From: Massilia oculi
Lineage (GTDB): Bacteria; Pseudomonadota; Gammaproteobacteria; Burkholderiales; Burkholderiaceae_D
NCBI RefSeq assembly: GCF_003143515.1
Contig: NZ_CP029343.1
Coordinates: 2,728,001 to 2,792,000, forward strand
Direction: 5' to 3'
Length of the DNA stretch: 64,000 bases
The notes beneath the pieces are model-generated. The model saw only the letters and a list, made by a program, of their open reading frames with translations. It ran no database searches and was not told the origin of the DNA. The position numbers and the translations under genes were made by a program. Below, piece by piece: positions 12,404 through 62,273 of this stretch. The number at the start of each line of letters is the position of its first letter. Position 1 is the stretch's first letter.

Positions 12404-12445
12404 CAGTCAGTTCCCATCCTCGCGATTTCCATCTTGGTCGGCATC

Positions 12446-13867: not shown

Positions 13868-13870
13868 GAT

Positions 13871-41090: not shown

Positions 41091-42620
41091 ATGGTCCACT
41101 ATGCTGCAAGTCGTGCTGTCATGTACGTCCGCATGTCGACCGAGAGCCAGGACTACTCGACGGATCACCAGCGCGCTAGGATCCGAGAATACGCAGCGGC
41201 GCGCGACATTGAGATCATTCGAGAGTACGTCGACGACGGCAAGAGCGGTTTGGACATCCGACGGCGTTCAGGATTGCTCGCTCTCATGCGTGACGTTCAG
41301 TCAGCGGCGCCCGACTTCAGCCAAATTCTTGTATTTGACATCAGCCGATGGGGAAGATTCCAAGACATCGATGAGGCTGCCTACCACGAGCACACCTGCA
41401 GGCGTGCTGGCATAGAAGTCATCTATTGCGGCGAACGCTTCGCCGACGACTCAGGACCGTATGCCTCGCTGCTCAAAAGCATGAAGCGCGTCATGGCGGC
41501 GGAGTACAGCCGCGACCTATCCGAAAAGGTGTTCGCAGCCCAGGCCAGGTTCATCGCGATGGGCTTTAAGCAAGGTGGGCACGCTGGGTACGGTCTTCGG
41601 CGCCTAGCGCTAAAGGCATGCGGTACGCCGCGTGCCATTCTCGAATATGGCGAATCGAAGATATCCGCAACGGACCGAGTTGTGCTGGTCTGGGGCCCTG
41701 AGCACGAAGTGGAGACGGTGCGGCGCGTGTACTCCCTCTACCTTGAGCAAGGCTCCAGTGAAGCAGGGCTTGCACGCTTACTCAACAGCGAAGAGGTGCT
41801 AAGCGAGTTTGGCCGGCCATGGACTCAGGCGATGATCAACTCGTTACTGACCAACGTGAAGTATTGCGGTGCCCTCGCCTATAACCGGCGCTCGTGCAAA
41901 CTTTCTACTCGTCGAACTCGCAACGCTGCCGACCAATGGATCGTGAATCAAGAGGCGATCGCTCCGATCATCGATGCCCGGGTCTTCGATCAAGTCCAGG
42001 AAGAGCGCGCGCGTCGGCTGAGGCGTCGTACTCGGGATGAGTTGGTCCCCCTCCTTCAGTCCTGTCACGACCGGCATGGGACAGTGAATGCGAAGATTAT
42101 TGCAGCCGATTCGCTGATGCCGGATCCGCAATTGTTAGTGCGCACGTTCGGCTCCCTCATGAGTGCTTACCAAGCCGCCGGTCTGCCAAATTCTCCGAAG
42201 CATGCATTTGTGACGACGAAACGATTGATCGCCGCGGCACGCGCCGCCCTCCAGCAGGAGGTCGAAACTCTCGCCGTGGCCGCTGGCGGCACCACCGACC
42301 TGATAGACGACCGGAGCACAGTTCTGATAAATGGGCGCCTCCGGGTCCTGATCGAGATCGCCGTTCCGAGAAACCCTCGCCGTGGCCAGCAGAACTGGAA
42401 AATTCGCGGCAGCCCAAATGCCGACTTCACTATCGTAGGCCGGATGGAACCGATCACAGGGGTCATAGCAGACTACTTCCTTTTCAGCCAGGACGACTTG
42501 GCGCCAGGAGCGATCTATTTGAAGGATTCAAATCTCGACCAGTTCGCTTGCATGCGATATCCGACTGCGGGCGCGATGTTTGGTCTCGACTGCCCCGGCT
42601 TGCTGGAGGCCTCGTGCTGA
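41091..42620 (+). CDS. Large serine recombinase, first of a tandem pair
   Basis: This 509-residue recombinase has a resolvase-type catalytic domain (about 8-150). The nucleophile is S16 in YVRMSTESQ, with the conserved DISRWGRF and AAEYSRDLSEKV. A recombinase DNA-binding domain follows (about 165-300, GFKQGGHAGYGLRRL, ARLLNSEEV). The C-terminal 200 residues lack the zinc-ribbon cysteines usual in phage integrases. The start has a GGAGG site six bases upstream. Its 3' end overlaps the second recombinase by seven bases. It probably moves the element that it lies in. Confidence 0.92.
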   Translation: MVHYAASRAVMYVRMSTESQDYSTDHQRARIREYAAARDIEIIREYVDDGKSGLDIRRRSGLLALMRDVQSAAPDFSQILVFDISRWGRFQDIDEAAYHEHTCRRAGIEVIYCGERFADDSGPYASLLKSMKRVMAAEYSRDLSEKVFAAQARFIAMGFKQGGHAGYGLRRLALKACGTPRAILEYGESKISATDRVVLVWGPEHEVETVRRVYSLYLEQGSSEAGLARLLNSEEVLSEFGRPWTQAMINSLLTNVKYCGALAYNRRSCKLSTRRTRNAADQWIVNQEAIAPIIDARVFDQVQEERARRLRRRTRDELVPLLQSCHDRHGTVNAKIIAADSLMPDPQLLVRTFGSLMSAYQAAGLPNSPKHAFVTTKRLIAAARAALQQEVETLAVAAGGTTDLIDDRSTVLINGRLRVLIEIAVPRNPRRGQQNWKIRGSPNADFTIVGRMEPITGVIADYFLFSQDDLAPGAIYLKDSNLDQFACMRYPTAGAMFGLDCPGLLEASC

Positions 42621-44113
42621 AGGCATACGCTGACCGGGCTGCGCTATATCTAAGAGCCTCAACGGAGCACCAGAACTACTCAACCGAGCATCAAGAGGCA
42701 GCACTGCAGGAGTACGCTGCGGCGCATGGCTTCGCGATCGTAAGGGTATATCGCGATAAGGGGCGCAGCGGGCTTACTTTGGATGGGCGGGCGGGTCTAC
42801 TCGAGCTGCTCACCGATATTCAAGCCGGCCGTGCCGACTTTAAAGTTGTCCTAGTATACGACGTGAGCCGCTGGGGTCGCTTCCAAGACGTTGATGAGAG
42901 TGCCTACTACGAATATGCATGCCGCCGGGCCGGCATCGCAGTGTCGTACTGCGCCGAGCCTTTCACAAACGACGGATCACCGCTCGCGGCCGTGCTCAAG
43001 GGCCTCAAACGAGCCATGGCTGCCGAGTATAGTCGCGAACTGTCAGCGAAGGTATTTCGAGCGCAATGCCGCCTTACCAAAGCCGGATTCAAGCAAGGCG
43101 GCCTGGCTGGCTACGGGCTCCGCCGCATCGTGATCTCTGCGGCTGGTCAGCCGAAGGGCCTCCTGGGCGTCGGCGAACGCAAGCCCATGCCAACTGATCG
43201 CGTCAGTTACACCAGAGGGCCGGAAGACGAAGTAGCCGTGATTCACCGCATCTACGAAATGTATCTTGGCGAGCGCATGTCGGACACTGGTATTGCGCGC
43301 CGCCTCAATGGCGAGGGGATCGCGAACGAGTTCGGCCGTACTTGGTCACCGTACCATGTAAAGCAAATTCTCACGAACGACAAGTATGCTGGCACCTTGG
43401 TGTTCAACCGGAGCACCCAGCGCCTGAAAAGCTCACGTCGCGCGAATGCACGGGCAACTTGGGTGAAAGTAGACGACGCTTTTGACGCAATTGTGTCACG
43501 CGATAAGCTCGAGGCCGCACGCGGCGTACGAGAACACCGCCGCCGGCAGTGGTCAGATGACGAAATGCTCGATTCACTACGCCAGATATTCGTCGAGCAC
43601 GGTAAGGTCACTCTGGACCTGATCAACGCCAGCGGCGGGCCAGCGGTGAAATCATATGCTGCGCGCTTCAACGGCATTACATCGGCAATGGGTCTCGCTG
43701 GCGTGAGCTGGCCATCTCTCACCCGAAGCACCATCACCCGGTACCGGATGAGGTGTATTAGCCGTGACATGACGATCGAGCTCGAGCGATGCGCGGTCGC
43801 GGCAAACGCCCAAGTCGAGAAGCTCAGTCCACGCACCTATCGACTGAACGGTGTAACCGCCCGCTTGCTGTGCACTCGGTGTCGGTACGAGCGAAGCCAT
43901 CCTTGCTGGAAGGTCGCGCTGGCGCATAAGCCAGCGGTCGACTTCATCATCTGGGTCCGCGCCGATCCATCGAACGAGCATATTGCAGCTTTCTATCTCA
44001 TTCCAGTGGCAGACTTCCCAGACAATCTCTACATCTGGCCGTCTGTGCGAACGCTGAGCAAGTATGCGCGCTATACCCACGGTTCTCTGGCTGCGATTTT
44101 CGGTCTTGAGTGA
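42614..44113 (+). CDS. Large serine recombinase, second of a tandem pair
   Basis: This 499-residue recombinase has the same architecture as its neighbour. S16 is in YLRASTEHQ, DVSRWGRF and AAEYSREL are kept, and a recombinase domain follows (about 160-290). The GTG at 42614 is the better start: GGAGG lies at 42605-42609 and the overlap with the first gene is seven bases. An ATG at 42548 would begin deep inside the first gene. The C-terminal part has a single CTRC pair. The two proteins are clearly homologous but diverged, so both have been kept under selection and may act together. Confidence 0.92.
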   Translation: MLKAYADRAALYLRASTEHQNYSTEHQEAALQEYAAAHGFAIVRVYRDKGRSGLTLDGRAGLLELLTDIQAGRADFKVVLVYDVSRWGRFQDVDESAYYEYACRRAGIAVSYCAEPFTNDGSPLAAVLKGLKRAMAAEYSRELSAKVFRAQCRLTKAGFKQGGLAGYGLRRIVISAAGQPKGLLGVGERKPMPTDRVSYTRGPEDEVAVIHRIYEMYLGERMSDTGIARRLNGEGIANEFGRTWSPYHVKQILTNDKYAGTLVFNRSTQRLKSSRRANARATWVKVDDAFDAIVSRDKLEAARGVREHRRRQWSDDEMLDSLRQIFVEHGKVTLDLINASGGPAVKSYAARFNGITSAMGLAGVSWPSLTRSTITRYRMRCISRDMTIELERCAVAANAQVEKLSPRTYRLNGVTARLLCTRCRYERSHPCWKVALAHKPAVDFIIWVRADPSNEHIAAFYLIPVADFPDNLYIWPSVRTLSKYARYTHGSLAAIFGLE

Positions 44114-44254
44114 GCCGCTTCGCCCAAGTATTAGCCTAGCCTAAGTCAAAAGCATAAGTGACTTTTGGCGAGATTCCTTGGGTCGGACCCGCCTGTCGTG
44201 ACAGTCTGTGACCTTTGCAAGTCAGCAACCTGCTAACCTGTGCCGATCGGCTGA

Positions 44255-44276
44255 AAATGGCTAATTGCAGCCATTT
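44255..44276. promoter_or_regulatory. Palindrome upstream of the giant nuclease-like gene
   Basis: AAATGGCT and AGCCATTT form a perfect 8-bp inverted repeat with a 6-base centre, 62 bases before the start at 44338. It is a candidate operator or hairpin. Confidence 0.4.
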
Positions 44277-44281
44277 AACTC

Positions 44282-44300
44282 TCCCAGGTAGCACCTGGGA
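44282..44300. promoter_or_regulatory. Second palindrome upstream of the giant nuclease-like gene
   Basis: TCCCAGGT and ACCTGGGA form a perfect 8-bp inverted repeat with a 3-base centre, 37 bases before the start. It is an operator or leader hairpin candidate. Confidence 0.4.
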
Positions 44301-44337
44301 CCGAACGCCTGCGGCGAAGGCAAAACGCAAGGGATAT

Positions 44338-47300
44338 ATGGGAAAGAAGTCGCGCGAGAAGCGTGAACGTCGAGAGAGCGCTGACGGTAGGAATGCCTCA
44401 ACGTCCCTACTTGAACAGATGCAGGACTTCCTTGGTAGATCAGAGCAACAGGTGCAGGTCGACCTGCACTTCCAGCGTGACGTAGCGGCTGTAGAGGCAG
44501 TTCTGCGCAGGTACGTGCGCTTTGATGCCGCTGTAGCAGTGGCCGTATCAGACCTTTGGCAGCCGAATGTGGCCAGTCCGATCAAGCACCTGTTTGCCTG
44601 GACAGTGCTCTTGGGTCTTCAAAGCGACTCGAACGACGCACAGGCAATCCAGACTTACGAAGACTTTGCCCTCTTTCTGACCGAGCTCTACGCGGCCTGG
44701 CCCGAGTTCCCGACGCTAGAGGACTGCCACATCGAAGCAGATTGGGGCCAAGTTCGTGCCCCCCTTGGTGATAGCTACGTGCCGATGTTCTACGGCAGTT
44801 GCATCGAGCGGCTTCCCGACTTTGTACAGGCATTCCGCATCACGCATGACGGCAACCAGGCAGCCCTGGCCGACATGGACTTCGCTATCGCTCTGCACGC
44901 TGACCTGATTGAGGCAGTTCCGAACCCGGCCGGCGCTGTACTCCCGGAGCCTAGTTACGGTCACGTGGAGGTGCCGCTCGAGAATTTCTGGACCTCGTGC
45001 CGTGTCGCGCTCCTAAGTACAGGCGCTAGGGTCGCCAAATGGCGAGCCAACGCAAGCGCCAAGCTGGTCGCTTCCATGGGCGCGTATAAGGCGCCACTGA
45101 CTTGGGCGACGTTTGGGGATGCTGTCCTCACGGGCGGAGCCCTGCCGTTTCTGGGTGTAGCGCAAGGCGAAACGTGGGTTCCAATCTCGTTGCGGAGTGG
45201 GCCAGGGGTCATCATCGACCGCTGGGCTAAAGTTGGGACGCTAGGTGGCACCGCGCAAACCCATAAGGCTATCGGCCGCTATGTTGCCGCCCGGCTGCGG
45301 CATGTGATGGTCGGCCCGATGAAGCTACTGGTCAGCCGGCAAGAATTTCCCGCGCTGACTGTCAGCTGCACCATCACTGGAGGCTCACTGGTACATCTGT
45401 TCTGCACCTGCGACCATCGGTCACTTGCGGCCGCTGGCGCCGCGGCTTCCGCAGTCTATGCAGCTCTTCGCAGTGGGGGTGTTCTGCACCTGCGAATGGA
45501 CGACGGACGGGGTTTAGCTTTCGGCCAAGGTGAGCAGAGCGGTCCCGGGGCTGACGATGTGCAGATCGTTATCGTCCTGACACAGTCCGGTACTGGTCTC
45601 AACATGCTTGACGCGCCTAAGCGGCCCACGAGGATCATCCCCTTGGCTGACTTGGTCAGCATCGTAGATGGCCTCGAGGACATACGGGAGCTTGAGCAGT
45701 TCTGGAGTTTTGCGGATACACAGCGGGGAACGCTATCGCCGTTTTCCCGCGCGCTTGCTGACCTCTTCGGCACGTTCAAGGATACGCACGGGGTGCTCGT
45801 AGAGGGAGCCATTAACCCGACGATGATTGCCCTAGATCCGCACTGGGGCAGCGGGTGGCGCTTCAATACCCTGACCGAGTTCTGGGCGTCGGCGCCGCCG
45901 CGTTTCCCGGACGGGTCGTCTGGATGGCACGTGAAGCGCACCGCCAAGGGGGTTGTTGAGCTTCGCTCGCGTCACCATACTGCGATGGCTTACTCCACCC
46001 AGGTCGGCTCCTGCACCGTCCAAGCAACGGTGACGGTGGAGCCCGGGCTGGAGGTCGAAGACGCTAAGATGGCGGACATGTTCGCGCAGATGGTCATCGA
46101 CGCGCTTCATGAGTGTGCAGGCGATTTCCAGTTGGAAGCGCTATTTCAACGGCAGCAGCTGGTCTTCGCCTGCCGCCTCGCCGATCAGGGGCGTGTTGAC
46201 CGAGAGCAGTCCCCGGCGCCTCTGGAGAGCTTCGAGAAAATAGTGCTGTCTGCCACCGGAAGCGTGGGGAACCCAGCTCGCGTTGAAATGAAGCTTCATG
46301 CAACCGCGATACAGGCTGGTCTGAATGGGGCACGAAACGCAGCCTTCGAGGCCCGCTGCCTTCAAGAAACATTCTTCGCCTGCACAGCGTCACTCGGCAT
46401 TACTGCCCCGCAGAACCTCGTAACCCGATTGGCGGGCCTCGCGGCACGCCCCGCGCGGTACCATCTGCAGGTGCTGGAGCGGACGATAGACGTGCCCGAC
46501 TTTGCTGACCCAGTCGTTCCGACACCAACAGAGTACAAGCTCGCGCGCAAGGCACTGGCCGTCGTGATGAAGGAAAGTGACCTAGAGCCTGGTCGCTACG
46601 AGCTGCACGAGGCAAAGGTGCGCATCGACACGGCTCGAGAACGCTTTCGCCTTCAACTCGAAAAGCGGCTTGCGCCGCTGGACAGGGAGATGCTGGCCAT
46701 CGCCTGCGTCGAGCAGCACGACAGCTTACTTCTTGCCAGACGCATCCGCGAGACCCGAGTGCACCAGAGCCGCGCCCACCAAGTCGACTACAACCGCTTG
46801 GAAGCTCTTTCCGAAGCTCGGAAGGAGTTTGAAAGCACCGCTCGCAACTACCGGTACCTGCTGGAGAAGGCGGTCAGCTCTACCACGAGTGGGCAGGAGC
46901 GAATCACGCCGCAGCTCTTGCGAGAACTCATCGGACTGGTTGACTGGTACATGGTTCTTGCGGGGGCCAGCGACGTTCTGCACAACCAGGTTGACGTAAG
47001 CGGCGTGGACATCGACGACCAGTTCGTCCCGGAGGTCTTCTACTCCCAGACTTGGCAGGAACGAGAGGAAGAGTATGCGCACGAGTTGGCGAGAATCAGG
47101 CTAGGCGAGGGAATCAAAAACGACGACGCTGTGGAGGGGGCAGTCGCGGAGCTTCTGGTGAGCGAAAATCTCCAGAAGGCATTCAAGGCTGACGTGGGGT
47201 TCGAGCTACAGAAACTCCTGCAGGCCCTAACGGTTTTCACCCAGCCGGTGCGCCATGGCCTGGCGGACGACTTGGCTCTGTTTTATCTGGGGGAGCCAGA

Positions 47301-48141
47301 CCACCTTGCCCATGCCATCGTGCAGGGTTTCGAGGAAATCACGCCGGCCGAGGCTACTGCAATCGTGTCGTTCCTGACGCTTTCGGGACCCAACATCAGG
47401 CGCTTGTCCGGCAAGACAATCGACGAAAGCGATGTCCCGTTCTGGGAGCACAGCAAGCGTCTTCATCGCTATGCCATCCGGCCTCTTGTCCCAGTCGGAA
47501 AGCAGGTCGTCTGGGGAGCCGAGAGCGCTAGTCGGTCTCAGCTGATATGGCTGTCAGCCGTTCGAGATGGCGTTCTTCCGGCTGACTTCCAGTGGCCAAA
47601 CGTCCAAGCAGTCGTCAAGTCCATCAAGAAGCTCATTGAGGATGCGCTTGAGGTCCGCGCCGTGGAGATTCTCAAGCGCCACACCCCGTACGTTGAAGGC
47701 GGCGCGGATTTCTTCCGGCGGTTTCGCAAGGAGGGCTTCGCGGACGTCGGGGACTACGATGTGTTCGCCTACTGGCCAGCTACGAATACTGTCCTTTATG
47801 CGGAATGCAAATACAATCAAACGGCGCACTCAATAAAGGATTCCCGGCGGCTGAGAGACCGCATGTTCGGCATGAGTGACGCGGACAAAAACGGCCAATA
47901 CAGCCGAATTCGCGGACGTCGAGAGTTTCTTGCCAAGAACCGAGACAAGATGTTTGACCTCTTAAAGTGGCCTAAGCCCGCGGAAGTGCCTCCCAGAGAT
48001 GTGGAGGTTTATGTCAGCCGCGAGCTTCACTATTGGATGGTGCACACGCCGTATGAGGTTCCCACCAAGTTCATCCGAGTGGACGCATTGGATGCCTGGG
48101 TAAACGATGGAATGAGAACAGGGAAGTACGAGGCGAAGTGA
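44338..48141 (+). CDS. 1,267-residue protein with C-terminal PD-(D/E)XK nuclease signature
   Basis: I do not recognise this protein as a whole. It starts with a basic, charged stretch (MGKKSREKRERRES) after an AAGGGA site. An upstream in-frame start at 44215 is less likely. The body is long, mixed alpha/beta and then helical, with no Walker A, helicase or signal sequence. The last 130 residues contain GDYDVFAYWP (D1139, D1141) and, after a strand, LYAECKYNQ (E1156, K1158). That is the D...E-x-K arrangement of restriction-endonuclease folds, like NERD or Mrr domains. It follows the two recombinases by about 225 bases. A defence or element-protection role is inferred from fold and place only. 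Confidence 0.7.
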   Translation: MGKKSREKRERRESADGRNASTSLLEQMQDFLGRSEQQVQVDLHFQRDVAAVEAVLRRYVRFDAAVAVAVSDLWQPNVASPIKHLFAWTVLLGLQSDSNDAQAIQTYEDFALFLTELYAAWPEFPTLEDCHIEADWGQVRAPLGDSYVPMFYGSCIERLPDFVQAFRITHDGNQAALADMDFAIALHADLIEAVPNPAGAVLPEPSYGHVEVPLENFWTSCRVALLSTGARVAKWRANASAKLVASMGAYKAPLTWATFGDAVLTGGALPFLGVAQGETWVPISLRSGPGVIIDRWAKVGTLGGTAQTHKAIGRYVAARLRHVMVGPMKLLVSRQEFPALTVSCTITGGSLVHLFCTCDHRSLAAAGAAASAVYAALRSGGVLHLRMDDGRGLAFGQGEQSGPGADDVQIVIVLTQSGTGLNMLDAPKRPTRIIPLADLVSIVDGLEDIRELEQFWSFADTQRGTLSPFSRALADLFGTFKDTHGVLVEGAINPTMIALDPHWGSGWRFNTLTEFWASAPPRFPDGSSGWHVKRTAKGVVELRSRHHTAMAYSTQVGSCTVQATVTVEPGLEVEDAKMADMFAQMVIDALHECAGDFQLEALFQRQQLVFACRLADQGRVDREQSPAPLESFEKIVLSATGSVGNPARVEMKLHATAIQAGLNGARNAAFEARCLQETFFACTASLGITAPQNLVTRLAGLAARPARYHLQVLERTIDVPDFADPVVPTPTEYKLARKALAVVMKESDLEPGRYELHEAKVRIDTARERFRLQLEKRLAPLDREMLAIACVEQHDSLLLARRIRETRVHQSRAHQVDYNRLEALSEARKEFESTARNYRYLLEKAVSSTTSGQERITPQLLRELIGLVDWYMVLAGASDVLHNQVDVSGVDIDDQFVPEVFYSQTWQEREEEYAHELARIRLGEGIKNDDAVEGAVAELLVSENLQKAFKADVGFELQKLLQALTVFTQPVRHGLADDLALFYLGEPDHLAHAIVQGFEEITPAEATAIVSFLTLSGPNIRRLSGKTIDESDVPFWEHSKRLHRYAIRPLVPVGKQVVWGAESASRSQLIWLSAVRDGVLPADFQWPNVQAVVKSIKKLIEDALEVRAVEILKRHTPYVEGGADFFRRFRKEGFADVGDYDVFAYWPATNTVLYAECKYNQTAHSIKDSRRLRDRMFGMSDADKNGQYSRIRGRREFLAKNRDKMFDLLKWPKPAEVPPRDVEVYVSRELHYWMVHTPYEVPTKFIRVDALDAWVNDGMRTGKYEAK

Positions 48142-48257: not shown

Positions 48258-48764
48258 TCAGCCTTTCTGCCGTGCCTTGCCACGGCACCACAGGCTGATG
48301 CCTTGGATCGAAGGCGCGGCGTGCGAACCCGTTCGGTCCGCAGTTACGAACGTCACCCGCATCTCATCGTGCTGGCGCAGGCTGCCGATCCAGAGACCGG
48401 TGTCGCGGACCGGAAAGCTGAGATTACTTCGTCCCGTTCGGCCTTCGGGCCAGCCATAGAAGGTCAAGGTGCCGACCCGTACACCCCTCGGCTGACCGTC
48501 CTCCCCCAATCCGGTTTCGCCCAGAAAGATGTGAACGGGAGGCTCATCTTCGCTTTCAGCCCGCAAGCCGCTGATGACGAGCCACAGCGCCGTGCATCTC
48601 CGGATAGCTGCATGCGGGTCGCGCACCGTGGGACTGAGCGGCAACTGGAGGGTTCGGTCGAGGCCGGCCTCGCCCTTCCATTCGCCGATCCGCTCGGTTT
48701 TGCGCTCGGCTGCGGCAACCTGGGCGGCGACAGACATGATCAGGACGACAATTGCGACTTTCAT
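48258..48764 (-). CDS. Small secreted protein resembling the tyrosinase C-terminal domain
   Basis: This 168-residue protein has a signal peptide (about 1-20, VAIVVLIMSVAAQVAAAE). I chose the ATG at 48764 after GGAGGGTCCC. The mature part shows LVISGLRAES...PVHIFLG...VGTLTFYG...GRSNLSFPV...MRVTFV...IQGISL. The tyrosinase gene just upstream ends with a domain of the same order: LKMEGLSADR...YDVHLAA...VGTINFFG...GRSVSFQL...YVTFVPL...IRQILV. I infer a stand-alone copy of that beta domain, comparable to the C-terminal domain of plant polyphenol oxidases. It is the last gene of the exported cluster, 76 bases after the tyrosinase stop. Confidence 0.65.
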   Translation of the reverse strand: MKVAIVVLIMSVAAQVAAAERKTERIGEWKGEAGLDRTLQLPLSPTVRDPHAAIRRCTALWLVISGLRAESEDEPPVHIFLGETGLGEDGQPRGVRVGTLTFYGWPEGRTGRSNLSFPVRDTGLWIGSLRQHDEMRVTFVTADRTGSHAAPSIQGISLWCRGKARQKG

Positions 48765-48840
48765 GGGACCCTCCACGTGTCGGGAAATCCAAAATACCAT
48801 GGAAGCGCGGGCGAGAACCGAAGATCGCGCAACGGCCTGC

Positions 48841-50361
48841 TCAGCTGCCCGACACCAGAATTTGGCGGATTCTTGGCTTGGCGTCTTTGGCCCCGCCCGA
48901 AAGTGGTACGAAGGTGACATACGGCGCCAGTCCCGATTGGCTGAGCTGTTGTTTAAGTGCCTTACTAAGTTGAAAACTGACGGAACGCCCGGCCGCGCCT
49001 GCGGCAGCGCTTCCCTCATCCTGGCCGCCACCGTGGCCTGCACTGTGGCCACCGCCATGCGCGTCGCCCTGGCCGGAATGCGCCGACTCCGCGCCGAAGA
49101 AGTTGATCGTGCCAACATAGCTCGGCGCGCTGCGCCGCTTGGTGACGGACGACATGGCGGCCAAGTGCACATCATAAGCCGGCGCCCCGCGGTCGGCCGA
49201 CAGACCCTCCATCTTCAGGTAGGCCGGCTTCTCCGGGTCGATTTTCAGCGGCGCGGCAACCAGCGTGGGACGATCCCCCACTTGGGTTGCGCCGGATTCA
49301 AGCTTGACCTGGCGCGTCGCCGTGGACAGGTTAATGTCGCGAGCGCTGGCGCGGGCCACTGCGCGGTTGGTCACCAGCAACGGCTTGGTTGCGGGGATCG
49401 GATCCGCGCCAATGTAGAAGTCGTACTGGTAGTCCTGCATCTGCACCGCTTCGCCTGCCTTGCGGCGCAGCGGCTCGCCGGTTGGACCTGCGAAAGTGAA
49501 TTCTTCGTTCAGGAACTGCGGGTCCGTGGGATTGACGCCGCCTGCCCTGTTCCAGCTCGCCCAAGCCCGGTCGATATTGCAGTGATGGACCCAGAAGATG
49601 GGGTCGTCGGCTGCCCACGCCACCCTACCCATGCCGATCCGGTTGCCCACGTTCGTGTGCACGGCCCCATGCAAGGTGCCGTCGATATTCGCGCAGAATC
49701 CGGCGTCCTCCTCGGATTCGTTGTAGTCGACCGACTTCATGAAGTCCAGGGATAGCGGGGCGCGGCTGCCGGCCGGCTGGTCGATCGGCTGTCCCTGGTT
49801 CACTCCGGGATTGCGGTTGGGCCGGAACAGGTGCTTTAAGATTGGGTGCTTGGGTGACCGGAATGCTTCCGGCAAGGCGCGTCGGCTGAGATCGGGGTCC
49901 GTATAGTCCCAATATGGCAGGGCAAAATCGGCCCGGCCACTCACCACCCGCACGATGTCCTCGAAGGCCAGCAGGTACAGACGGTGCCAGGGCAGGAAGA
50001 AGGGTTCGCGGCGGGCGTCCAGATGGGCCTCGCAGGTATTCCACATGAGCTTGGCGAGCTCGCGGTGGGTGCCGTTGGCGCTGTAGATGCGCTGCAGTTC
50101 GGCATCCTTCGTGCGGTCGCCGCGGACCATGTGGGTGTACCACTGGAAGGTCCAGGAACGCGGATCGCCTTCAGGGTACTTGGACGAGTCCATCATCGCG
50201 CCGACGGCCTTCGCATAGATTATCAGCATCTCCCGTCCGGCGGCGGTATGCAATGCCGGGCGCGTGACCACCCGCGCCTGGGCCTTCGCGGCGGGCATCA
50301 GGGCGGCCAGGGCGCATCCGGCCGATCCGTTCAGGAAGGTGCGGCGGTGTGCGTCAAACAT
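48841..50361 (-). CDS. Tat-exported tyrosinase / polyphenol oxidase
   Basis: This 506-residue type-3 copper enzyme oxidises phenols to quinones. It has a twin-arginine signal (HRRTFLNGSAGCALAALMPAA). The copper A histidines are H77, H113 and H126 (FFLPWHRLYL), with C110 three residues before H113 as a possible thioether partner. The copper B histidines are H231, H235 and H260 (DDPIFWVHHCNIDRAW). After the catalytic domain (to about 330) come a linker, a C-terminal beta domain (about 385-506) and a Gly/His-rich spacer (about 440-455). In plant enzymes such a domain shields the active site until cut. The upstream protease genes fit that. Physiological substrates are unknown. Confidence 0.92.
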   Translation of the reverse strand: MFDAHRRTFLNGSAGCALAALMPAAKAQARVVTRPALHTAAGREMLIIYAKAVGAMMDSSKYPEGDPRSWTFQWYTHMVRGDRTKDAELQRIYSANGTHRELAKLMWNTCEAHLDARREPFFLPWHRLYLLAFEDIVRVVSGRADFALPYWDYTDPDLSRRALPEAFRSPKHPILKHLFRPNRNPGVNQGQPIDQPAGSRAPLSLDFMKSVDYNESEEDAGFCANIDGTLHGAVHTNVGNRIGMGRVAWAADDPIFWVHHCNIDRAWASWNRAGGVNPTDPQFLNEEFTFAGPTGEPLRRKAGEAVQMQDYQYDFYIGADPIPATKPLLVTNRAVARASARDINLSTATRQVKLESGATQVGDRPTLVAAPLKIDPEKPAYLKMEGLSADRGAPAYDVHLAAMSSVTKRRSAPSYVGTINFFGAESAHSGQGDAHGGGHSAGHGGGQDEGSAAAGAAGRSVSFQLSKALKQQLSQSGLAPYVTFVPLSGGAKDAKPRIRQILVSGS

Positions 50362-50413
50362 GGGGAGTGTCCTCGTGATAAAAGGGGAAATGGGATCGGT
50401 AGAAGGGATGGGA

Positions 50414-52585
50414 TCAGCGGCTGGCCCGGATCAGGACCTCGATCTTGTCGAGCGGCACGTCGTGGACCTTGCCGTCAGCCTCCACAAACGTGATGCGGCT
50501 GTCCGACACCGGACAGTACTGAGGCTCGACTAGCGACCCATCCATTCCCTTCGGCAGGACACGCAGCTGTGTGACGCCGCCCTCGATGCGCGTGCGCAGC
50601 GAGAACAGCCTGGCTGGCTCGAGCACCCGGTCATCGGCACAGGCCTTGAAGTCGTCGAACGGATCGAAGTGCCATTTGCCGTACAGGTCGGCCGACGCGC
50701 CGCGTACGCGCAGCACGTCTTCGTAGACGCGCAGGGCCCGCTCGACGTTGAGAACGATGCCGCCGAAGCGCGTATAGCCCTGGGCCGCCGGGACGTGATC
50801 GGCCGACGCGATGATGCGCGCCTTCACGTCCGACATCTTTCGCACACCCAGCGCATGAACGGCCGCGGCAGTGAACGACACCAGCGGTGCCGCCAGGGAC
50901 GTTCCATGAAGCCATTGAGTTGGACTGCTGTCCCACTGGAACGGGATGCGGCAGCCCGGCGCCAGCAGGTCGACCCGGTCAGGACTAAAATTCGTGAACC
51001 GGGCCGGCGCACCGTTGGGCCCGCTGGCGCCCACCGCGATAAGCCAGGACGCCGGGACCTCAGCTCCGCTGTACGAAGCGGGATAGGTTAGCTTGCCAAG
51101 GACGATGTCCTTCCCATCGTTTCCGGCGGCGACAACAGTTAGGACATTCCCCTGCGCGGCTTCGCGTAAACCCTTGGCCAGCAAGGTCGTCGACTGTACG
51201 TTCGTGGTACCCACGCTGAGGTTGATCACGCGCGGCTTCGGATGGGAAGGAACTTCCCCTATCGACTTAGCCAGCGTCGCATCATCGACCAGAACCGTGT
51301 CCTGCACCCTCATGAAGACCTTGGCCATGCTCAGCTTGACCAGCTGGTACACATCGGGGTAAGCGCTGCGCAATGCGTAGCCGCCAAGGGCGACGTCGGC
51401 GACCTGGGTTCCGTGCATGGCGTATTTGTCGTTCTTCTCCGGCTCCACGTCGCCACTCTCGCGCACGCCAAAACCGTAGTAATCGCCCCAGAGGCCATTT
51501 TGGTCGCTGTCGACCAGCGGGCTGGCCTTCTCCGCGGCGTTTACGGCCAGCGCCTGCATGGGAAAATACGAGGATAGGCCGCGTGCGCCGGTGTCGACCA
51601 CGCGCACCACTGCTGGCAAGAGCGCAAGGCCCTGCTTCGCGGCCGCTGCGCGGCTAGACTCGATAGCGGCAATCACAGCGGTCTGATTGATCGGCCAATC
51701 GGGCGTGAGCGTGCTGCCCGCAGGGTCGCAAGACGTGCCGCTCAGCACCGGGGCATCCTCAGCCAGCGGCTTGATCAATTCCATGCCGCCACCTTCATGC
51801 GCGCTAGTAAAGACTTGAGGACCCTCGGGCTGCACCCGGAAGCCAGCTACGCCCTTGAGCGAGCCAGCTGACTTGATGACCTTCAGGCCATTGAATGCGC
51901 CGCCCAGGTTGGCAGAATGGCGGCTCATGTACCGCTTCTGCAGTTCCCGCAGACGCTTGAGCGCGTCTTCTGACTTGATGCCCGGCTTGAGAATAATCGT
52001 GCTGGGCAGGACCTTCCACGGCAATGAAACGGCACGGTTCGGATCCAACGGCTTGTCAAGCCCAGCCTGCTCGCCGCCGTTACGCACCGCGACCTTCTCC
52101 ACCGCCATTACATTGCAGTCGGAACGGCGGTCGTTCGGTTCGCAGGGCGACACCTGGGCTCCTGGCTCTACCCCGAGGTGGCGCTTCAGGAAGGCCTGCC
52201 AGTCTTCGCCAGGCAAGGGCTGCGCCACTACATTGGTATCGATCTGTACGCACGCGGGCAGGCGCAGTTTGCGGTCTTCCTTGGCGGGTCCGAATATAAA
52301 GCCCGGGTTGTCGCGGATGGCCAGCTGGTAGTAATCGTTGGTGTACGAACCACCGCAATGCGCACGCAACAGGCGTAGCGGGTCCTCACCACCCGGGACG
52401 GTGCGCTCGGCCAGTGCGCCGAGGTCTGCCAGCAGCCATTGTGCGTCGGCGGGAAGCGGGCCGGCCGGCATGATGGTGATGATCTGCGGAGTGGCCGGCA
52501 TAGTATTGGCCGAGGCGGCCACCGGCAGGGCGAGCGAAACCAGGAGTGCGGTCCGGCGCATGATCATGGGCGGGCGGGACGGCAA
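50414..52585 (-). CDS. Exported subtilisin-like (S8) serine protease
   Basis: This 723-residue protein has a signal peptide (cleaved near residue 26), a long N-terminal region (about 30-315) of unknown fold with several Cys, and an S8 catalytic domain with D331 (VRVVDTGARG), H391 (AMHGTQVADV), oxyanion N489 (VAAGNDG) and S563 (HGTSLAAPLV). The prodomain-like N-terminus is much longer than in classical subtilases. Its start lies inside the trypsin-like gene (22-base overlap). The tyrosinase gene starts 52 bases downstream. It may act on the exported tyrosinase or on itself. Confidence 0.9.
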   Translation of the reverse strand: MPSRPPMIMRRTALLVSLALPVAASANTMPATPQIITIMPAGPLPADAQWLLADLGALAERTVPGGEDPLRLLRAHCGGSYTNDYYQLAIRDNPGFIFGPAKEDRKLRLPACVQIDTNVVAQPLPGEDWQAFLKRHLGVEPGAQVSPCEPNDRRSDCNVMAVEKVAVRNGGEQAGLDKPLDPNRAVSLPWKVLPSTIILKPGIKSEDALKRLRELQKRYMSRHSANLGGAFNGLKVIKSAGSLKGVAGFRVQPEGPQVFTSAHEGGGMELIKPLAEDAPVLSGTSCDPAGSTLTPDWPINQTAVIAAIESSRAAAAKQGLALLPAVVRVVDTGARGLSSYFPMQALAVNAAEKASPLVDSDQNGLWGDYYGFGVRESGDVEPEKNDKYAMHGTQVADVALGGYALRSAYPDVYQLVKLSMAKVFMRVQDTVLVDDATLAKSIGEVPSHPKPRVINLSVGTTNVQSTTLLAKGLREAAQGNVLTVVAAGNDGKDIVLGKLTYPASYSGAEVPASWLIAVGASGPNGAPARFTNFSPDRVDLLAPGCRIPFQWDSSPTQWLHGTSLAAPLVSFTAAAVHALGVRKMSDVKARIIASADHVPAAQGYTRFGGIVLNVERALRVYEDVLRVRGASADLYGKWHFDPFDDFKACADDRVLEPARLFSLRTRIEGGVTQLRVLPKGMDGSLVEPQYCPVSDSRITFVEADGKVHDVPLDKIEVLIRASR

Positions 52586-53457
52586 TTGGGTACCAGCGGG
52601 TCGATGCCGCAGACCGGCTGTTTGGCTTCAGCCAGCCAGTTCGTGATGAACTTCTGAGCCTTGCTGGACGAAAGAGACGTTAGGTACGACACCTTGTAGG
52701 TATCCAGTTTGGGGTTGGCCTGGACCGCCGAAACGACCGCGACGACACCACGCTTTCCGTTCTTGACCCGATAGACCGCGCCGCCGCTGTCACCCCGGCA
52801 TACAAAAGCAGTGTTGGCGCTGGTGCCGGGTTTTGTCGCGAGATAGCCGGGCCCCCAGGTCAGGCCGCCCGGCGGCACATCCACAAAAAAGGATCCCACC
52901 CAAAACTCCGGCGGCTTTGCGACTGTCATTGTCTCGAGGTCCGTGCAGCCGTAACCGCCCGCGATCAGTTCATCGTGCCGTGCCACGGCCAGGTTCAAGG
53001 CGACCCACTCATATTCCAAGTGCGGCTCTATGACTTCCTTATCCATCAGGCACAGGGCCAGGTCGTGGCTGGGTTCAACGAGTGACCACGTGGATTCACG
53101 CTTGCATTTCCCTCCGTATGCCGCGCCACTAGGCAACGTGATGCTGATCCGTTTGTCGTGGCCGACGCAATGCGCCGCGGTCAACAGTACACGCGGCCCA
53201 ATCAGTGTCGCAGTACAGGTGCCGCCGTCGAATCTGGCCACGAAAGACGCCGGCCACAGCTTGGTGTTGACGCGTTGGGCGTTGCCCATCTTGGGTATCG
53301 CACCTGAATCCTGTGTCAAGCTTGCGACAGAAACGAACTCTAATGTGCCATCGTTGGTGCTGAATTCCAAATCCTGAGCTGCGGCTGTTGAACCGTAGGT
53401 GCAGGCCAGGAGAGACGCGCATCCAAGCCAGCGGCGGATCAAGCGCGAACGTGCCAT
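52564..53457 (-). CDS. Exported trypsin-like (S1) serine protease
   Basis: This 297-residue protein has a signal peptide (about 1-27, ending STAAA). I chose the ATG at 53457 after AGGGGAAG. A start 45 bases earlier would bury the signal. The triad is H96 in LTAAHCVGH, D132 in SHDLALC and S224 in CRGDSGGAV. Cysteine pairs are consistent with periplasmic or secreted folding. It overlaps the S8 gene by 22 bases, and the lipoprotein gene ends 13 bases before it, so all are co-transcribed. Confidence 0.9.
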   Translation of the reverse strand: MARSRLIRRWLGCASLLACTYGSTAAAQDLEFSTNDGTLEFVSVASLTQDSGAIPKMGNAQRVNTKLWPASFVARFDGGTCTATLIGPRVLLTAAHCVGHDKRISITLPSGAAYGGKCKRESTWSLVEPSHDLALCLMDKEVIEPHLEYEWVALNLAVARHDELIAGGYGCTDLETMTVAKPPEFWVGSFFVDVPPGGLTWGPGYLATKPGTSANTAFVCRGDSGGAVYRVKNGKRGVVAVVSAVQANPKLDTYKVSYLTSLSSSKAQKFITNWLAEAKQPVCGIDPLVPNCRPARP

Positions 53458-53470
53458 ATCGCTTCCCCTT

Positions 53471-54922
53471 TTATTGGCACGTTCCGACGACGATGCCGTC
53501 AACGTCTTTCACATCCTTCTGCGCGTCGAGGCAGGCTTTAATGGCCTTGTTAAGCTCAGCCACGTCCTTCGCTTGGTTCAGCTGGCGATCGGCGGCGCGC
53601 TCGGCCGCGTCGTCGATCAGCTTCTGGCGTGCCTCTCGGTGAGCCGTGTAGGCGTCCAGGTTGGTATTGAGGGTGCCCGCAGCCTTATCCACGAGAGCGC
53701 TATCCTTGAAGCCGATTTTGTCTAGCGAACCATCAGCGCCGAGCGACACGTTCAGGGTCTGCTCTGCGAAGACACGGTTTTTTAGCGGCACGATGACGTA
53801 ATCACCAAGCTGCGGCACGATGACCCGGACAGGAGTGAGCAGCGAGGTGTCGTCCTCGCTGTTGCCCATGCACGTGTTCTGGCAAGCGCGCACCACGCCG
53901 TAGGCGGGCTGGCGAACGACGAAACCCGGAAAGCTGCCGTTGTCGGTGGGATCAGACACCAAAGGAACGTCGGTGCGGACCTGGACGACCGTACGCAGAG
54001 TCGGCAGTTGGTGGTAGACCTTGGTACCTTCGTTCTCTGTTAGAGCGTCGAGGAGTTTGAGCCCTTCCTCCGTGAGCCATTTACCGCTCTCCACCTGGGG
54101 GGGATATATGGCGATACTGACGCCGTCCGTGTCAAGGTCCTTCTTGGTTGGCGTCCATCGGCGGATGACGCGTGCGCGCAATTTCTGGCGTGCGGCCTCG
54201 AGCGCAGGATCCTCTCCCTTCTTCTCGGCCGCCGCTGTTTGAGTCCCTCCAGCATCCGCCTGCGCAGGCTTGGCCATGTTGTCTGCTTTCCGCGAAACGG
54301 CTGGCTGTGCGGCCACACCTGGCACTTGCGCCGTTTTAGCCGCCTTGCCTAGCTCCTCTTTGGCTGCAGCCTGCGCGTTAGCCTTAGCCTTAGCCTCTGC
54401 CTTCGCCTTCGCCTTCGCCAGCATTTGGAGGGCCTCGATCACATGGTCTGTACAGACCTTTGGCGGGGCAAGCGCGTCCCTTGCCATGGCAAGCATCCCG
54501 CCCTGCAGCCCCGCAATGCGAAGAACCGTGCCGACCGCCCCGGTAAGGGCCGGCCCCGTCTTATCACTAATGGTTGTCGACACGCTCTTCAAGGTCGATC
54601 CCGGATGGGATTCGACGGAAAACTCGGTATCCTTGAACACGTTTCGCAACGATTCATAAGGCACCACAAAGCGTTCACCGCGCGTGGTCTCCGCCGTAAT
54701 GGCCACCTTCTTAGCGACGTCGAAAAAAACTTGCCCGTCTTTATTGGTCTCACAACGCTCGATTTCGTAATCCACTGTCACGACCAAAGTCGTGGCCGGC
54801 AGCGTGTACGGCACGCCTTCGATGACGCCGCCAGTGTGGCGCCGCACCTCGAGCTGGGTGCAACCGGACAGCAGGAGCATGGGGAGAAAGAACAGTACCG
54901 AAGCTTGCCGACGGTTTAGCAT
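53471..54922 (-). CDS. Lipoprotein of unknown function heading the tyrosinase cluster
   Basis: This 483-residue protein has a lipoprotein signal peptide with lipobox LLLSGC (Cys21). An N-terminal domain (about 30-165, starting GVIEGVPYTLPATTLVVTV) resembles in pattern uncharacterised DUF4831-type domains. A low-complexity Ala/Lys/Glu stretch follows (about 170-205), probably a helical rod, and then a C-terminal domain (about 240-420) and a helical tail. It is the first gene of the cluster on the minus strand. It could anchor the other exported products at the cell surface. Confidence 0.7.
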   Translation of the reverse strand: MLNRRQASVLFFLPMLLLSGCTQLEVRRHTGGVIEGVPYTLPATTLVVTVDYEIERCETNKDGQVFFDVAKKVAITAETTRGERFVVPYESLRNVFKDTEFSVESHPGSTLKSVSTTISDKTGPALTGAVGTVLRIAGLQGGMLAMARDALAPPKVCTDHVIEALQMLAKAKAKAEAKAKANAQAAAKEELGKAAKTAQVPGVAAQPAVSRKADNMAKPAQADAGGTQTAAAEKKGEDPALEAARQKLRARVIRRWTPTKKDLDTDGVSIAIYPPQVESGKWLTEEGLKLLDALTENEGTKVYHQLPTLRTVVQVRTDVPLVSDPTDNGSFPGFVVRQPAYGVVRACQNTCMGNSEDDTSLLTPVRVIVPQLGDYVIVPLKNRVFAEQTLNVSLGADGSLDKIGFKDSALVDKAAGTLNTNLDAYTAHREARQKLIDDAAERAADRQLNQAKDVAELNKAIKACLDAQKDVKDVDGIVVGTCQ

Positions 54923-56134: not shown

Positions 56135-56725
56135 TCAAGTAGGAACATCTGCAGTATTGGCCGGCTTTACTATCCGCATGACGCTAGCCCTAGAAATACC
56201 AAAGGTGCGCGCCAGGGCGCTGATCGAAGCGCCGGCCTGGTGTTGTCTCGCCATTGCAGAGCGCTGCTCGTCGGTAGTGCTGGCTGGGCGCCCCAGCGTC
56301 TTCCCTTCTGCTTTTGCCCGGGCCAAGCCAGACTGGGTTCGCTCAACCAGCAGGTCGCGCTCCATTTCAGCCACAGCCGCGAGCATAGTTAGCATCAACT
56401 TGCCCGCAGCGCTGGTAAGGTCCAGCTTCCCTAGTTGCAGGACGATGACCTGGATGCGGCGCGCTGTTAGGGCCTTGATCGTGGCGCCGACGTCCTGAGC
56501 ATCACGGCCAAGGCGATCCAGCTTTGTCACTACTAGGGTCTCATCGTCTCGGATCTGTCCGAGCATCTTGGCGAACTGCGGACGCAGTAGCGCTGAGACC
56601 TTCCCCGACACGCCCTCGTCAGCATACCAGTAATTAACCTCATAGCCGGCCGTCTCAATCTCACGTCGCTGATTCTCTGTCGTCTGTTCTTTGGTGCTGA
56701 CTCGCCCATAGCCAAAAATTGCCAT
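56135..56725 (-). CDS. Small serine resolvase/invertase
   Basis: This 196-residue protein has a catalytic domain with S10 in YGRVSTKEQ, TKLDRLGRD and AEMERDLLVERTQSG, plus a C-terminal helix-turn-helix (about 155-188, SISALARTFGISRASVMRI). It is a Tn3-type resolvase or DNA invertase, not a large integrase. It has no transposase partner here. Inverted GAACATG boxes upstream could be its recombination site. Confidence 0.92.
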   Translation of the reverse strand: MAIFGYGRVSTKEQTTENQRREIETAGYEVNYWYADEGVSGKVSALLRPQFAKMLGQIRDDETLVVTKLDRLGRDAQDVGATIKALTARRIQVIVLQLGKLDLTSAAGKLMLTMLAAVAEMERDLLVERTQSGLARAKAEGKTLGRPASTTDEQRSAMARQHQAGASISALARTFGISRASVMRIVKPANTADVPT

Positions 56726-56978: not shown

Positions 56979-59387
56979 TTGAAAATTATTATCAAAATTG
57001 TGAACCTCTATACCGACCTGCAGAACGCGAGAAGCGAAGAAGATGTCAAAGATGCCTATATCAAAGCTCTTGGCTTGAAAGGCTATACGAAAGGTTTAAT
57101 CGATATCCAAACCAAGGAGATTTGGTTCGAGGCAAAAGATACTGGCAAACATTCTAGCTATGAAATGTTCACCCAGCTATTGCATTACGTTCAGGTTTCA
57201 ATGGATCGTGGCGAAACAGTTCCGCCGTTACTTGCAGTAATCGATACTGAAAAAGCAGCGTTAATGAAAAGCGTTGACGTACTGCCATTCTTAAAGAGAA
57301 AAACGGTAAAGTGGGGAAAGTCTGCAAGTCAATACACCCAGGAGGCCTTAGACGAAATTTCTGCGCACATTGGCACGCACTTCGTTTCCTTCAAGATTTC
57401 GACCCATGAAGAAGAATTCATCAGCACAGTTAAAGCGGCTATTAAGTGTGGCGACATAATTAGGACCCAGATTACGCCCGATAACCTAAAGCAGGTTTTC
57501 GACAAATGGGTTTCAATGATTGGACGCGAAATTTCTGGTGTGGACGATGAGCAATATGCACTTCTATTCTTTGCAGACATCATGCACGACGGCACAGTAT
57601 CTACTCATAACAATCTGCCGGCAGAGCTACTGCACAAAAACGGATCACCGATTTTTAGCCTAAACGGAAAAATGTTTGAGCTAGGCAATAAGGACGGCTA
57701 TAGACGGTTCTGGGCAATTTATCATAGACCGCCAAATGTCAGCTACCGCGATTACATGCTTGAACGTCGTGACAATCTTATTCCGGTAAATGAGCGTATT
57801 TTTAAAGGCGCGTATTACACTCCGCTCAAAGTCGTTGATAAGGCCTATGATAAGCTCGTCGAAACACTCGGCAAAGACTGGCAAAAAGAATATATTGTAT
57901 GGGATATGTGCTGTGGGGTTGGAAACTTAGAGGTCAAGCACAGTAATCATCGAAATATTTATATGTCAACCTTGGATCAAGCAGACATTGATATGATGAA
58001 AGCTACAAAAACATGTGTTTCTGCTCATCGTTTTCAATACGATTATCTAAACGACGACATTGATGAGAACGGAAAAATTAATTATGACCTCACGAATAAG
58101 ATTCCACAATCCTTAAGATTGGCAATTGCACAAGGGAAGAAAATCCTTATTTTAATTAATCCGCCTTACGCAGAAGCAGGTAGTGCAGACACCGTGACGG
58201 GAGGAGAACATAAAACTTCTGTAGCGACAACAAGGATGTCCCGATCAATGCCTGATTACGGATATGCTACTCGTGAGCTGTTCACACAATTTCTAGCACG
58301 AATTGCTCAAGAAATGCCTACAGCAACTCTCGCTATTTTCAGCAAGATTAAGTACGTCAATGCTCCAAATTTTGAACAGTTTAGAAAACTATGGAATGCT
58401 AATTACCTCGGCGGTTTCGTCGTTCATAGCAAATCGTTTGACGGTTTGAAAGGGGATTTTCCCATTGGTTTTCTTATCTGGAAAACTGACCAAAATGGTC
58501 CTAAGACCCCTATTACTGAAATTTCCGCTGAAGTCCTTGATAAAAACGCCCTTCCAAGAGGAGAAAAGAAATTTTACAATTTACCAAACTCAACTTTTCT
58601 GAGCGAATGGATTGTTCGTCCTAGAGGCAATGGGAAAGACTGCGTGCCTTTAAAAAACGCTATAACACCGGCAACAGTCACGAAAGATCTACGCGGAACA
58701 AAATGGGCGGAAAAAGGCATAGGCAGTATGTTATGCAATAGCAATATGCTTCAAAATGCTGGAAAATTGACAGCACTGTTCTCATCAGGCTTTGGCAGTG
58801 CTGGTGCATTTTTTGTTACTGAAGAAAATGTTGACAAGGCAGCAGTTGTTTTTGCGGTCCGACGATTAATAAAGCAAACATGGTTGAATGACCGCGATCA
58901 GTTTTTGCAGCCGGTAGAACCACTCGGTGATGAGTTCATTAATGATTGTTTAATCTGGATGCTTTTCAATGGAAGCAATCTGACTGCTGGCGCAGATGAT
59001 TTAGAGTGGAACGGAAAGAAATGGTCTCTTACTAATCACTTCATTCCATTTTCAGAAGACGAAGTTGGTGCACCTGATAGATTCGAGTCCGATTTTATGA
59101 AAGAACATTTATCTAAAAAGATACTGTCAGATGAAGCACTATCGGTTCTTGAGTCCGGCAGGATACTTTGGGAAGCCTACTTCGCATACACTGACGTTCG
59201 TAACGTTAGGGATAAATTCAAATTAAATCGGCCAGACGTTGGTTGGCATCAAGTGCGAAATGCCCTTGTGGAACGCGGCGCCAGTGGCGACACTCAAGCA
59301 GTCTCATTTAGTACTTTCGAGAGCAACTATACGGTGTTGAGTGAGAAATTGCGGCCGCAAGTTTTTACTTTAGGTTTTTTAAGGTAA
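56979..59387 (+). CDS. Fused restriction endonuclease / N6-adenine methyltransferase (type IIG-like)
   Basis: This 802-residue protein has an N-terminal nuclease-like segment with D42 and E51-x-K53 (IDIQTKEIWFEAK). It then has a methyltransferase with motif X (FKGAYYTPLKVV, about 276-287), SAM motif I (VWDMCCGVGN, 308-317) and catalytic motif IV NPPY at 394-397. A C-terminal target-recognition-like region (about 560-790) follows. One protein thus holds both activities, as in type IIG enzymes. The start is uncertain: TTG at 56979 or GTG at 57000, neither with a clear ribosome binding site. The gene is conspicuously AT-rich compared with the core, which marks recent transfer. Confidence 0.85.
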   Translation: MKIIIKIVNLYTDLQNARSEEDVKDAYIKALGLKGYTKGLIDIQTKEIWFEAKDTGKHSSYEMFTQLLHYVQVSMDRGETVPPLLAVIDTEKAALMKSVDVLPFLKRKTVKWGKSASQYTQEALDEISAHIGTHFVSFKISTHEEEFISTVKAAIKCGDIIRTQITPDNLKQVFDKWVSMIGREISGVDDEQYALLFFADIMHDGTVSTHNNLPAELLHKNGSPIFSLNGKMFELGNKDGYRRFWAIYHRPPNVSYRDYMLERRDNLIPVNERIFKGAYYTPLKVVDKAYDKLVETLGKDWQKEYIVWDMCCGVGNLEVKHSNHRNIYMSTLDQADIDMMKATKTCVSAHRFQYDYLNDDIDENGKINYDLTNKIPQSLRLAIAQGKKILILINPPYAEAGSADTVTGGEHKTSVATTRMSRSMPDYGYATRELFTQFLARIAQEMPTATLAIFSKIKYVNAPNFEQFRKLWNANYLGGFVVHSKSFDGLKGDFPIGFLIWKTDQNGPKTPITEISAEVLDKNALPRGEKKFYNLPNSTFLSEWIVRPRGNGKDCVPLKNAITPATVTKDLRGTKWAEKGIGSMLCNSNMLQNAGKLTALFSSGFGSAGAFFVTEENVDKAAVVFAVRRLIKQTWLNDRDQFLQPVEPLGDEFINDCLIWMLFNGSNLTAGADDLEWNGKKWSLTNHFIPFSEDEVGAPDRFESDFMKEHLSKKILSDEALSVLESGRILWEAYFAYTDVRNVRDKFKLNRPDVGWHQVRNALVERGASGDTQAVSFSTFESNYTVLSEKLRPQVFTLGFLR

Positions 59388-62222: not shown

Positions 62223-62273
62223 AAGCTCCTTAAGAAGTTTACTTTTTCGGTTTACGCAAATTACCTAAACCGC

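Follow-up and report, generated by a model that had tools for sequence, protein, structure and literature searches.

The window analysed here, a 64,000-nucleotide stretch of the Massilia oculi genome (contig NZ_CP029343.1, positions 2,728,001 to 2,792,000), holds on its minus strand at 48258-54922 five adjoining genes for a lipoprotein, an S1 and an S8 protease, a tyrosinase and a small secreted protein. We propose that this operon, which is mobile, encodes a polyphenol oxidase (PPO) of the latent plant type along with the components for its control outside the cytoplasm, a reading to which we assign a probability of roughly one half. The evidence comes from the C-terminal lid of the tyrosinase, from the small protein, which is a second such lid, and from the recurrence of lone lids and proteases beside the tyrosinases of other bacteria.

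A lidded tyrosinase and a separate lid

All five minus-strand genes reported in the first-pass annotation were present in an open-reading-frame (ORF) check. Starting from the operon's first gene, they encode a 483-residue lipoprotein (53471-54922), an exported S1 (trypsin-fold) protease (52564-53457), an exported S8 (subtilisin-fold) protease (50414-52567), a twin-arginine (Tat)-type tyrosinase or PPO of 506 residues (48841-50361), and a free-standing PPO lid protein of 168 residues (48258-48764). Export signals, judged by eye with no predictor, agree with the earlier claim that all five products are exported, with an LLSGC lipobox in the lipoprotein, the Tat-like motif RRTFLNG in the tyrosinase and general secretory (Sec)-type signals in the others. 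The gaps of 52 and 76 bases given before are correct, and the 13-base gap between the lipoprotein and S1 genes holds with ATG 53457 as the likely S1 start, which is favoured over TTG 53502 of the ORF. The 22-base overlap of the S1 and S8 genes holds when counted from TTG 52585, the longer ORF start of the S8 gene. The likely S8 start is ATG 52567, which shares the letters ATGA with the S1 stop codon in the manner typical of translational coupling; the two genes therefore probably overlap by 4 bases and not 22. Pfam matches were obtained for Tyrosinase (104.4 bits), DUF7868 in the same protein (26.3, cut-off 25), Peptidase_S8 (75.2) and Trypsin (39.7). Since the 5.84-Mb genome holds only one tyrosinase, 7 S8 matches and 5 trypsin-family matches, their grouping in one operon is more than chance. 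The genome's 16S sequence has at best 91.4% similarity to Burkholderia and Cupriavidus replicons in the plasmid collection, which places it probably in the Burkholderiales. Promoter-like sites numbered 3, against 1.9 expected by shuffling, and terminator-like sites 4, against an expected 7.0; by position, no site of either kind was telling.

Judged from its sequence, the enzyme is a lidded PPO with a plug residue. The six copper-ligand histidines claimed earlier could be placed by motif (H77, H113, H126, H231, H235, plus H259 or H260), C110 sits where the thioether cysteine lies, and a C-terminal lid (DUF7868, residues 330-501) follows the catalytic domain. A lid profile matched the enzyme with an E value of 4.4e-24 when the window's lid was in the model and 2.1e-11 in the first model, which was built without it, and the enzyme aligns over 385 residues with the lidded 8b74; the Pfam family PPO1_KFDV gave no match to it at E 0.01. 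The placeholder over the copper site of Hahella HcTyr1 is Phe397 (PMC11609597), with which F422 of the window tyrosinase aligns, a residue invariant in 46 aligned enzymes. Across 128 tyrosinase lids, this column held Phe in 125 and Tyr, Leu or a gap in 1 each. An enzyme of this architecture is predicted to be latent, and the earlier description of a self-contained exported phenol-oxidation module is supported, with the addition that its tyrosinase is of the latent, lidded type. Right behind the placeholder lies a low-confidence His/Gly loop (residues 424-456, 4 His); such a loop was likewise noted for the tyrosinases of L060, L098, and L129, and 10 of the 128 tyrosinases have at least 7 His in the lid region. 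Viral contigs held tyrosinase relatives only at three distant loci.

The small protein at 48258-48764, which the first-pass annotation had taken to be secreted while leaving its identity undefined, has a Sec-type signal and is, by profile, fold and alignment, a PPO lid without a catalytic domain, with Tyr103 aligned at the placeholder column. Neighbour counts were made for the best 80 of 211 tyrosinase relatives, with near meaning no more than 2.5 kb from the tyrosinase, which is 29% of the sequence examined. In these loci, 24 lone lids were present in 23 loci, all of them near and none farther away, so the lone lid is not incidental to the tyrosinase. Among 40 control tyrosinase loci from the same genus, family or order (about 7 kb on each side), one (L072) held a lone lid. 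Plasmid and control loci bring the number of lone lids to 27, all on the strand of the tyrosinase and 25 within 300 bp of it; 19 were scored upstream and 8 downstream, that of L108 being counted downstream only because the tyrosinase frame is over-long. Lids of their own are present in 25 of the 27 partner tyrosinases. By simple export rules, under which L072 falls just at the threshold and the start in L170 is unsure, a twin-arginine motif is present in 24 of the 27 partner tyrosinases and a hydrophobic stretch in 23 of the 27 lone lids, while 3 pairs have neither.

When 398 genomes from the phylum were scanned, with the window's lid in the model and at most 9 candidates scored per genome, lid places numbered 13, spread over 10 genomes and including two in the window itself, and 27 genomes had a tyrosinase. 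All 13 lie in or next to a tyrosinase match when the printed coordinates are compared by eye. In G395, the tyrosinase frame next to the lid place is interrupted by a stop codon, and G298 holds a further lone lid next to a lidded tyrosinase. A tblastn search of plasmids with the small protein gave no match, yet plasmids do hold lone lids (L054), and a single-sequence search therefore misses them. A split PPO was seen in Chromobacterium sphagni (L106:6976-9217), where a catalytic-only tyrosinase is followed 5 bases on by a lid and then by a member of a neighbour family that includes DUF2182 proteins; neither the tyrosinase nor the lid has an export signal by the simple rules.

The placeholder column is aromatic in all 27 lone lids, being Phe in 15 and Tyr in 12, and Tyr is found in 9 of 22 groups when lids at least 60% identical are merged. 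This bears on an alternative in which the free lid is a copper-loading or substrate-anchoring module that has kept the lid fold, with the proteases incidental. Fold comparison of the lid model does reveal a resemblance to carbohydrate-binding modules, also remarked in PMC10526336, and the tyrosinase's own lid has the loop with 4 His. However, an aromatic kept at the placeholder in every lone lid is not obviously required for copper loading or sugar binding, and the separate export signals usual in these pairs make a cytosolic, MelC1-like copper chaperone unlikely. We consider this alternative unlikely as a whole.

The lipoprotein, like the small protein, matched no Pfam family at E 0.01, and homologues of it were found neither in 148 other genomes nor in the viral contigs or plasmids searched. 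As the product of the operon's first gene, with a Lys/Ala-rich stretch around residues 169-188, it could belong to a cross-linking device in which the proteases expose this protein and other surface proteins and tyrosinase quinones cross-link them, for adhesion or as a protective coat. Quinone-lysine coupling is established chemistry, but a lipoprotein without relatives in these collections offers no conserved substrate, and such a use appears very improbable.

Proteases beside and within tyrosinase genes

Both catalytic triads described in the first-pass annotation were located, at H111/D147/S239 in the S1 protease (numbering of ORF 52564-53502) and at D331/H391/S563 in the S8 protease (numbering from TTG 52585), which also has a long N-terminal region that no Pfam family matches. 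The annotation had further proposed that conserved linkage be checked through neighbours. In the 80 loci, S8 genes were near the tyrosinase in 7 and far in 0 (binomial p by position alone 0.00018, kinship uncorrected), and S1 genes were near in 6 and far in 3 (p = 0.022 on the same basis). With one further locus, L138, in which S8 is part of the tyrosinase chain, an S8 or S1 protease stands beside the tyrosinase or is fused to it in 12 of the 80 loci, whereas none of the 40 control loci holds either. A paired test of S8 against S1 had only 3 starred pairs. The check thus found linkage above background, while in the nearest clade, discussed below, most members are without the proteases.

Proteases and tyrosinases also share single chains. 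S8-tyrosinase fusions are encoded on plasmids of Sinorhizobium americanum and S. medicae. In Aquabacterium terrae (L138:6491-11386), where the S8 domain lies within the tyrosinase's own chain, one frame of 1631 residues, with its start as called, comprises S8, peptidoglycan-binding, OmpA-like, tyrosinase, DWL, and lid regions. A metagenome-assembled genome of the Rhodobacteraceae (L150:6371-12973, frame and assembly as deposited) encodes a tyrosinase-DWL-lid-trypsin chain beside separate S1 and S8 genes. These observations support a linkage of tyrosinase to S8 and S1 proteases that recurs above the flanking background and includes three kinds of single-chain fusion.

Among plasmids, the arrangement most like that of the window is found in Rhizobium rhizogenes pColt5.8a, where the S1 and S8 genes overlap in the same way but the tyrosinase gene is divergent. 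Against 72,556 plasmid records, the window's S1 protease had its single match at this tyrosinase locus, and its S8 protease was matched with at least 80% coverage in 1 of 52 matched records, again the pColt5.8a locus. End-to-end kin of the S8 protease adjoin tyrosinases in R. rhizogenes, S. americanum, and S. medicae, and in the 398 genomes of the phylum no full-length S8 relative was found besides the window's own, with four partial domain matches. In the S1 alignment, the protein of L099 has no catalytic Ser motif.

A different role for the proteases would be that of partners in a secreted attack mixture, in which they and the tyrosinase act jointly on external proteins, phenolics or competitors and not on each other, the proteases opening substrates, the quinones cross-linking or poisoning, and the lid keeping the enzyme quiet until it is outside the cell. 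Three protease classes (S8, S1, and M4) adjoin these tyrosinases, and a cytochrome-like CxxCH protein occurs in seven protease-bearing loci, as a mixed toolkit would show. One-chain protease-tyrosinases and the tight spacing of S1, S8, and tyrosinase genes fit action directed at the enzyme better, without proving it, and we regard the mixture as unlikely though by no means negligible. The CxxCH protein, of about 390-450 residues, is encoded near the tyrosinases of L054, L055, L056, L099, L104, L132, and L141, each of them a locus with an S8 or M4 gene. In L056 its coding sequence is divided between two frames, and the M4 peptidase of L055 itself ends in a cytochrome domain. No such partner is encoded among the five genes of the window operon.

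An island at a tRNA-Thr gene

A tRNA-Thr (TGT) gene at 36793-36868 on the plus strand forms the left end of a mobile island. Its 3′ terminal 47 bases (36822-36868) recur exactly at C1:2795529-2795575, which is 30,707 bases downstream and beyond the end of the window, and a 442-residue integrase-like protein, which by eye reads like a tyrosine integrase, is encoded just inside the right end. Eleven sibling loci were taken as the right-flank gene with 1.5 kb on either side, and 3 of them hold a whole tRNA near that gene without the island, directly upstream of it in L199 and L201 and about 0.8 kb upstream in L208; in the other eight the tRNA is outside the fetched stretch, which says nothing. 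The repeat, the integrase-like protein and the island-free siblings indicate that the operon is cargo of an integrated 30.7-kb tRNA-Thr island.

This setting raises the question of whether the company of the proteases is coincidental, given that islands and symbiosis plasmids gather secreted enzymes, and tyrosinase and protease genes could come to lie together by accident. Besides the island with its defence-like genes, accident is favoured by the several linked loci that are plasmids, by EAD1 or EAD5 domains on some nearby trypsins, and by the patchiness of the association, which takes at least 13 changes on the tyrosinase tree. It does not sit well with S8 genes that are near in 7 loci and beyond 2.5 kb in 0 when near sequence is only 29%, with fusions in three lineages, with the protease-free control loci of kin, or with a lone lid that at least is not incidental. 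Accidental proximity is, in our estimate, quite unlikely. EAD1/EAD5 domains were seen near tyrosinases at L142:14588-15694, L143:15749-16798, and L176:13630-14844, on trypsins in L142 and L176; the EAD-bearing trypsins, whose neighbours are tyrosinases of Paracoccus and Puniceibacterium, may be parts of other systems.

Other island genes include a large serine recombinase (42548-44113, plus strand), a small resolvase (56135-56725, minus strand), and a 1308-residue protein (44215-48141, plus strand) convergent to the operon, which matched nothing in Pfam, NCBIfam or PADLOC at E 0.01. An 802-residue protein (56979-59387, plus strand) has a region like a type II adenine methyltransferase in NCBIfam and PADLOC scans. 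Also in the island, about 9 kb from the tyrosinase, an S8 protease and AAA ATPase resemble the anti-phage pair IetS/IetA (59679-63272, minus strand; IetA 236.8 bits in PADLOC, below the NCBIfam cut-off). In the window but outside the island, the type II secretion genes GspF and GspD (11183-16285, minus strand) mark a possible route outward for the operon products.

Proposed control of the enzyme and comparison with known systems

In the proposed mechanism, the tyrosinase would be exported folded by means of its Tat motif, carrying its own lid with Phe422 as placeholder over the copper site, while the free lid, with Tyr103 in the placeholder position, would be exported separately through its Sec-type signal. 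The operon's S1 and S8 proteases would cleave the enzyme in the linker that joins its catalytic domain to this cis lid (about residues 318-334), and the free lid could then cap the exposed active site, either stabilising it or serving as a reversible stopper. The Tyr of the Streptomyces caddie at the copper site becomes oxidised (PMC11608171, PMC10526336), and by analogy a Tyr plug suggests a stopper that is consumed by the enzyme itself, such that Tyr103 would be oxidised and the lid would leave once the enzyme is competent. Active enzyme would, as others of its family, turn phenols into quinones at the surface or outside, and its purpose may be phenol detoxification, melanin formation or competition, which are indistinguishable here. 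The broader scheme of a two-lid PPO, with a cis lid that nearly always has a Phe plug, a trans lid that often has Tyr as a self-expiring stopper, and dedicated S1, S8 or M4 proteases, in some cases fused to the enzyme, that remove the cis lid in several mobile lineages, is put forward tentatively and remains doubtful.

Several points weigh against the reading of a latent enzyme with its own controlling parts. Contact and cleavage among lid, enzyme and proteases are predictions from the genes. The residue six before the catalytic Ser of the S1 protease is Phe and not Asp, so trypsin-like cutting after a linker Arg is not indicated; the linker does contain Arg residues, but we do not claim it as a trypsin site. 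The window lid is divergent, with 11-26% identity to the other 25 lone lids in the alignment. HcTyr1 is able to self-cleave, and the lid of HcTyr2 is required for activity and stability, as reported in PMC11609597. The seeds of the S8 and S1 profiles were proteases linked to tyrosinases plus the IetS-like one of the window, and such profiles may have missed divergent unlinked proteases in the flanks. Among 12 plasmid loci taken by hand from 124 records with a tyrosinase match, S8 or S1 genes were far off in L104 (8.0 kb) and L054 (5.3 kb), and none was found in L058, L101, L103 or L105. Finally, in the nearest well-supported clade of 41 tyrosinases, 8 of which have less than 2.5 kb of sequence on at least one side, 36 show neither an S8 nor an S1 protease, whether in the tyrosinase chain or up to 2.5 kb away.

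The members of this clade with an S8 or S1 protease number five (the window, L131, L054, L132, and L138), and two of the other 36 carry an M4 metallopeptidase gene, by Pfam in L055 and as a cluster homologue in L104; a lone lid is present in 22 of the 41. With 36 of 41 close relatives showing neither protease, these proteases are not needed in general. The first-pass annotation had itself named, as a refuting observation, a tyrosinase without the protease genes in nearly all relatives, and by that standard its statement that the tyrosinase is matured by "its own proteases" does not describe a fixed property of the family. Their presence requires at least 13 changes on a quick tree of the tyrosinases, in which deep branches are weak, and inheritance together with the tyrosinase was rejected on this count. 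The proteases are instead an optional add-on, repeatedly gained or lost, to a core that is itself more common and consists of the tyrosinase and a lone lid.

Among the matches listed, read as titles and abstract starts, no literature on free-standing PPO lids or tyrosinase-linked protease genes was found, which is weak evidence of novelty. Proteases beside or inside lidded-PPO genes, together with a separate and recurrent exported lid, make PPO activation testable with a few purified proteins. If the mechanism is true, a trans-acting lid would be a practical reversible inhibitor of browning enzymes, and the two-lid system would be without known precedent as a genetically encoded activation cascade of a PPO of the plant type. 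Plants have been proposed to have acquired PPO from bacteria (PMC4707469), and bacterial partners of the enzyme therefore bear on the origin of lid control.

The Streptomyces MelC1/MelC2 system is similar in having a small separate gene adjoining that of the tyrosinase and an active-site aromatic in the small protein, caddie Tyr98 (PMC10526336), to which Tyr103 here corresponds by alignment only. The window tyrosinase differs in retaining its own lid, and the twin-arginine motif is on the tyrosinase with a plain hydrophobic Sec-type signal on the lid, whereas in the MelC1 system the small protein has the Tat signal and the tyrosinase has none. The MelC1 family PF06236 did not match the window lid (E 0.01) or seven other lids (E 1) in a scan of sequence against family, not profile against profile, and no MelC1 chain was among the matches listed in the lid model's fold search, which excludes nothing.

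The arthropod prophenoloxidase cascade, in which serine proteases activate a zymogen phenol oxidase, is alike by functional analogy only. Its activators are clip-domain proteases, and no clip domain was found in the window S1 protease, for which Trypsin and Trypsin_2 were the only matches at E 0.01. The shielding domain of insect prophenoloxidase is N-terminal (PMC11608171), and no such domain is seen in the window enzyme. The pro-tyrosinase of Verrucomicrobium spinosum (vsTyr) can be cleaved by added trypsin (PMC10526336), and the available source text describes no partner lid or dedicated protease for it. Closest in build are the latent PPOs MdPPO1 of apple, the aurone synthase cgAUS1, Ralstonia TYR (7xio), and Hahella HcTyr1 (8b74), which share with the window tyrosinase a catalytic domain with a C-terminal lid of the DUF7868/KFDV kind, the six copper-binding histidines, the thioether cysteine, and the placeholder aromatic. 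To this common plan the window operon adds a separate, exported second lid and two exported proteases.

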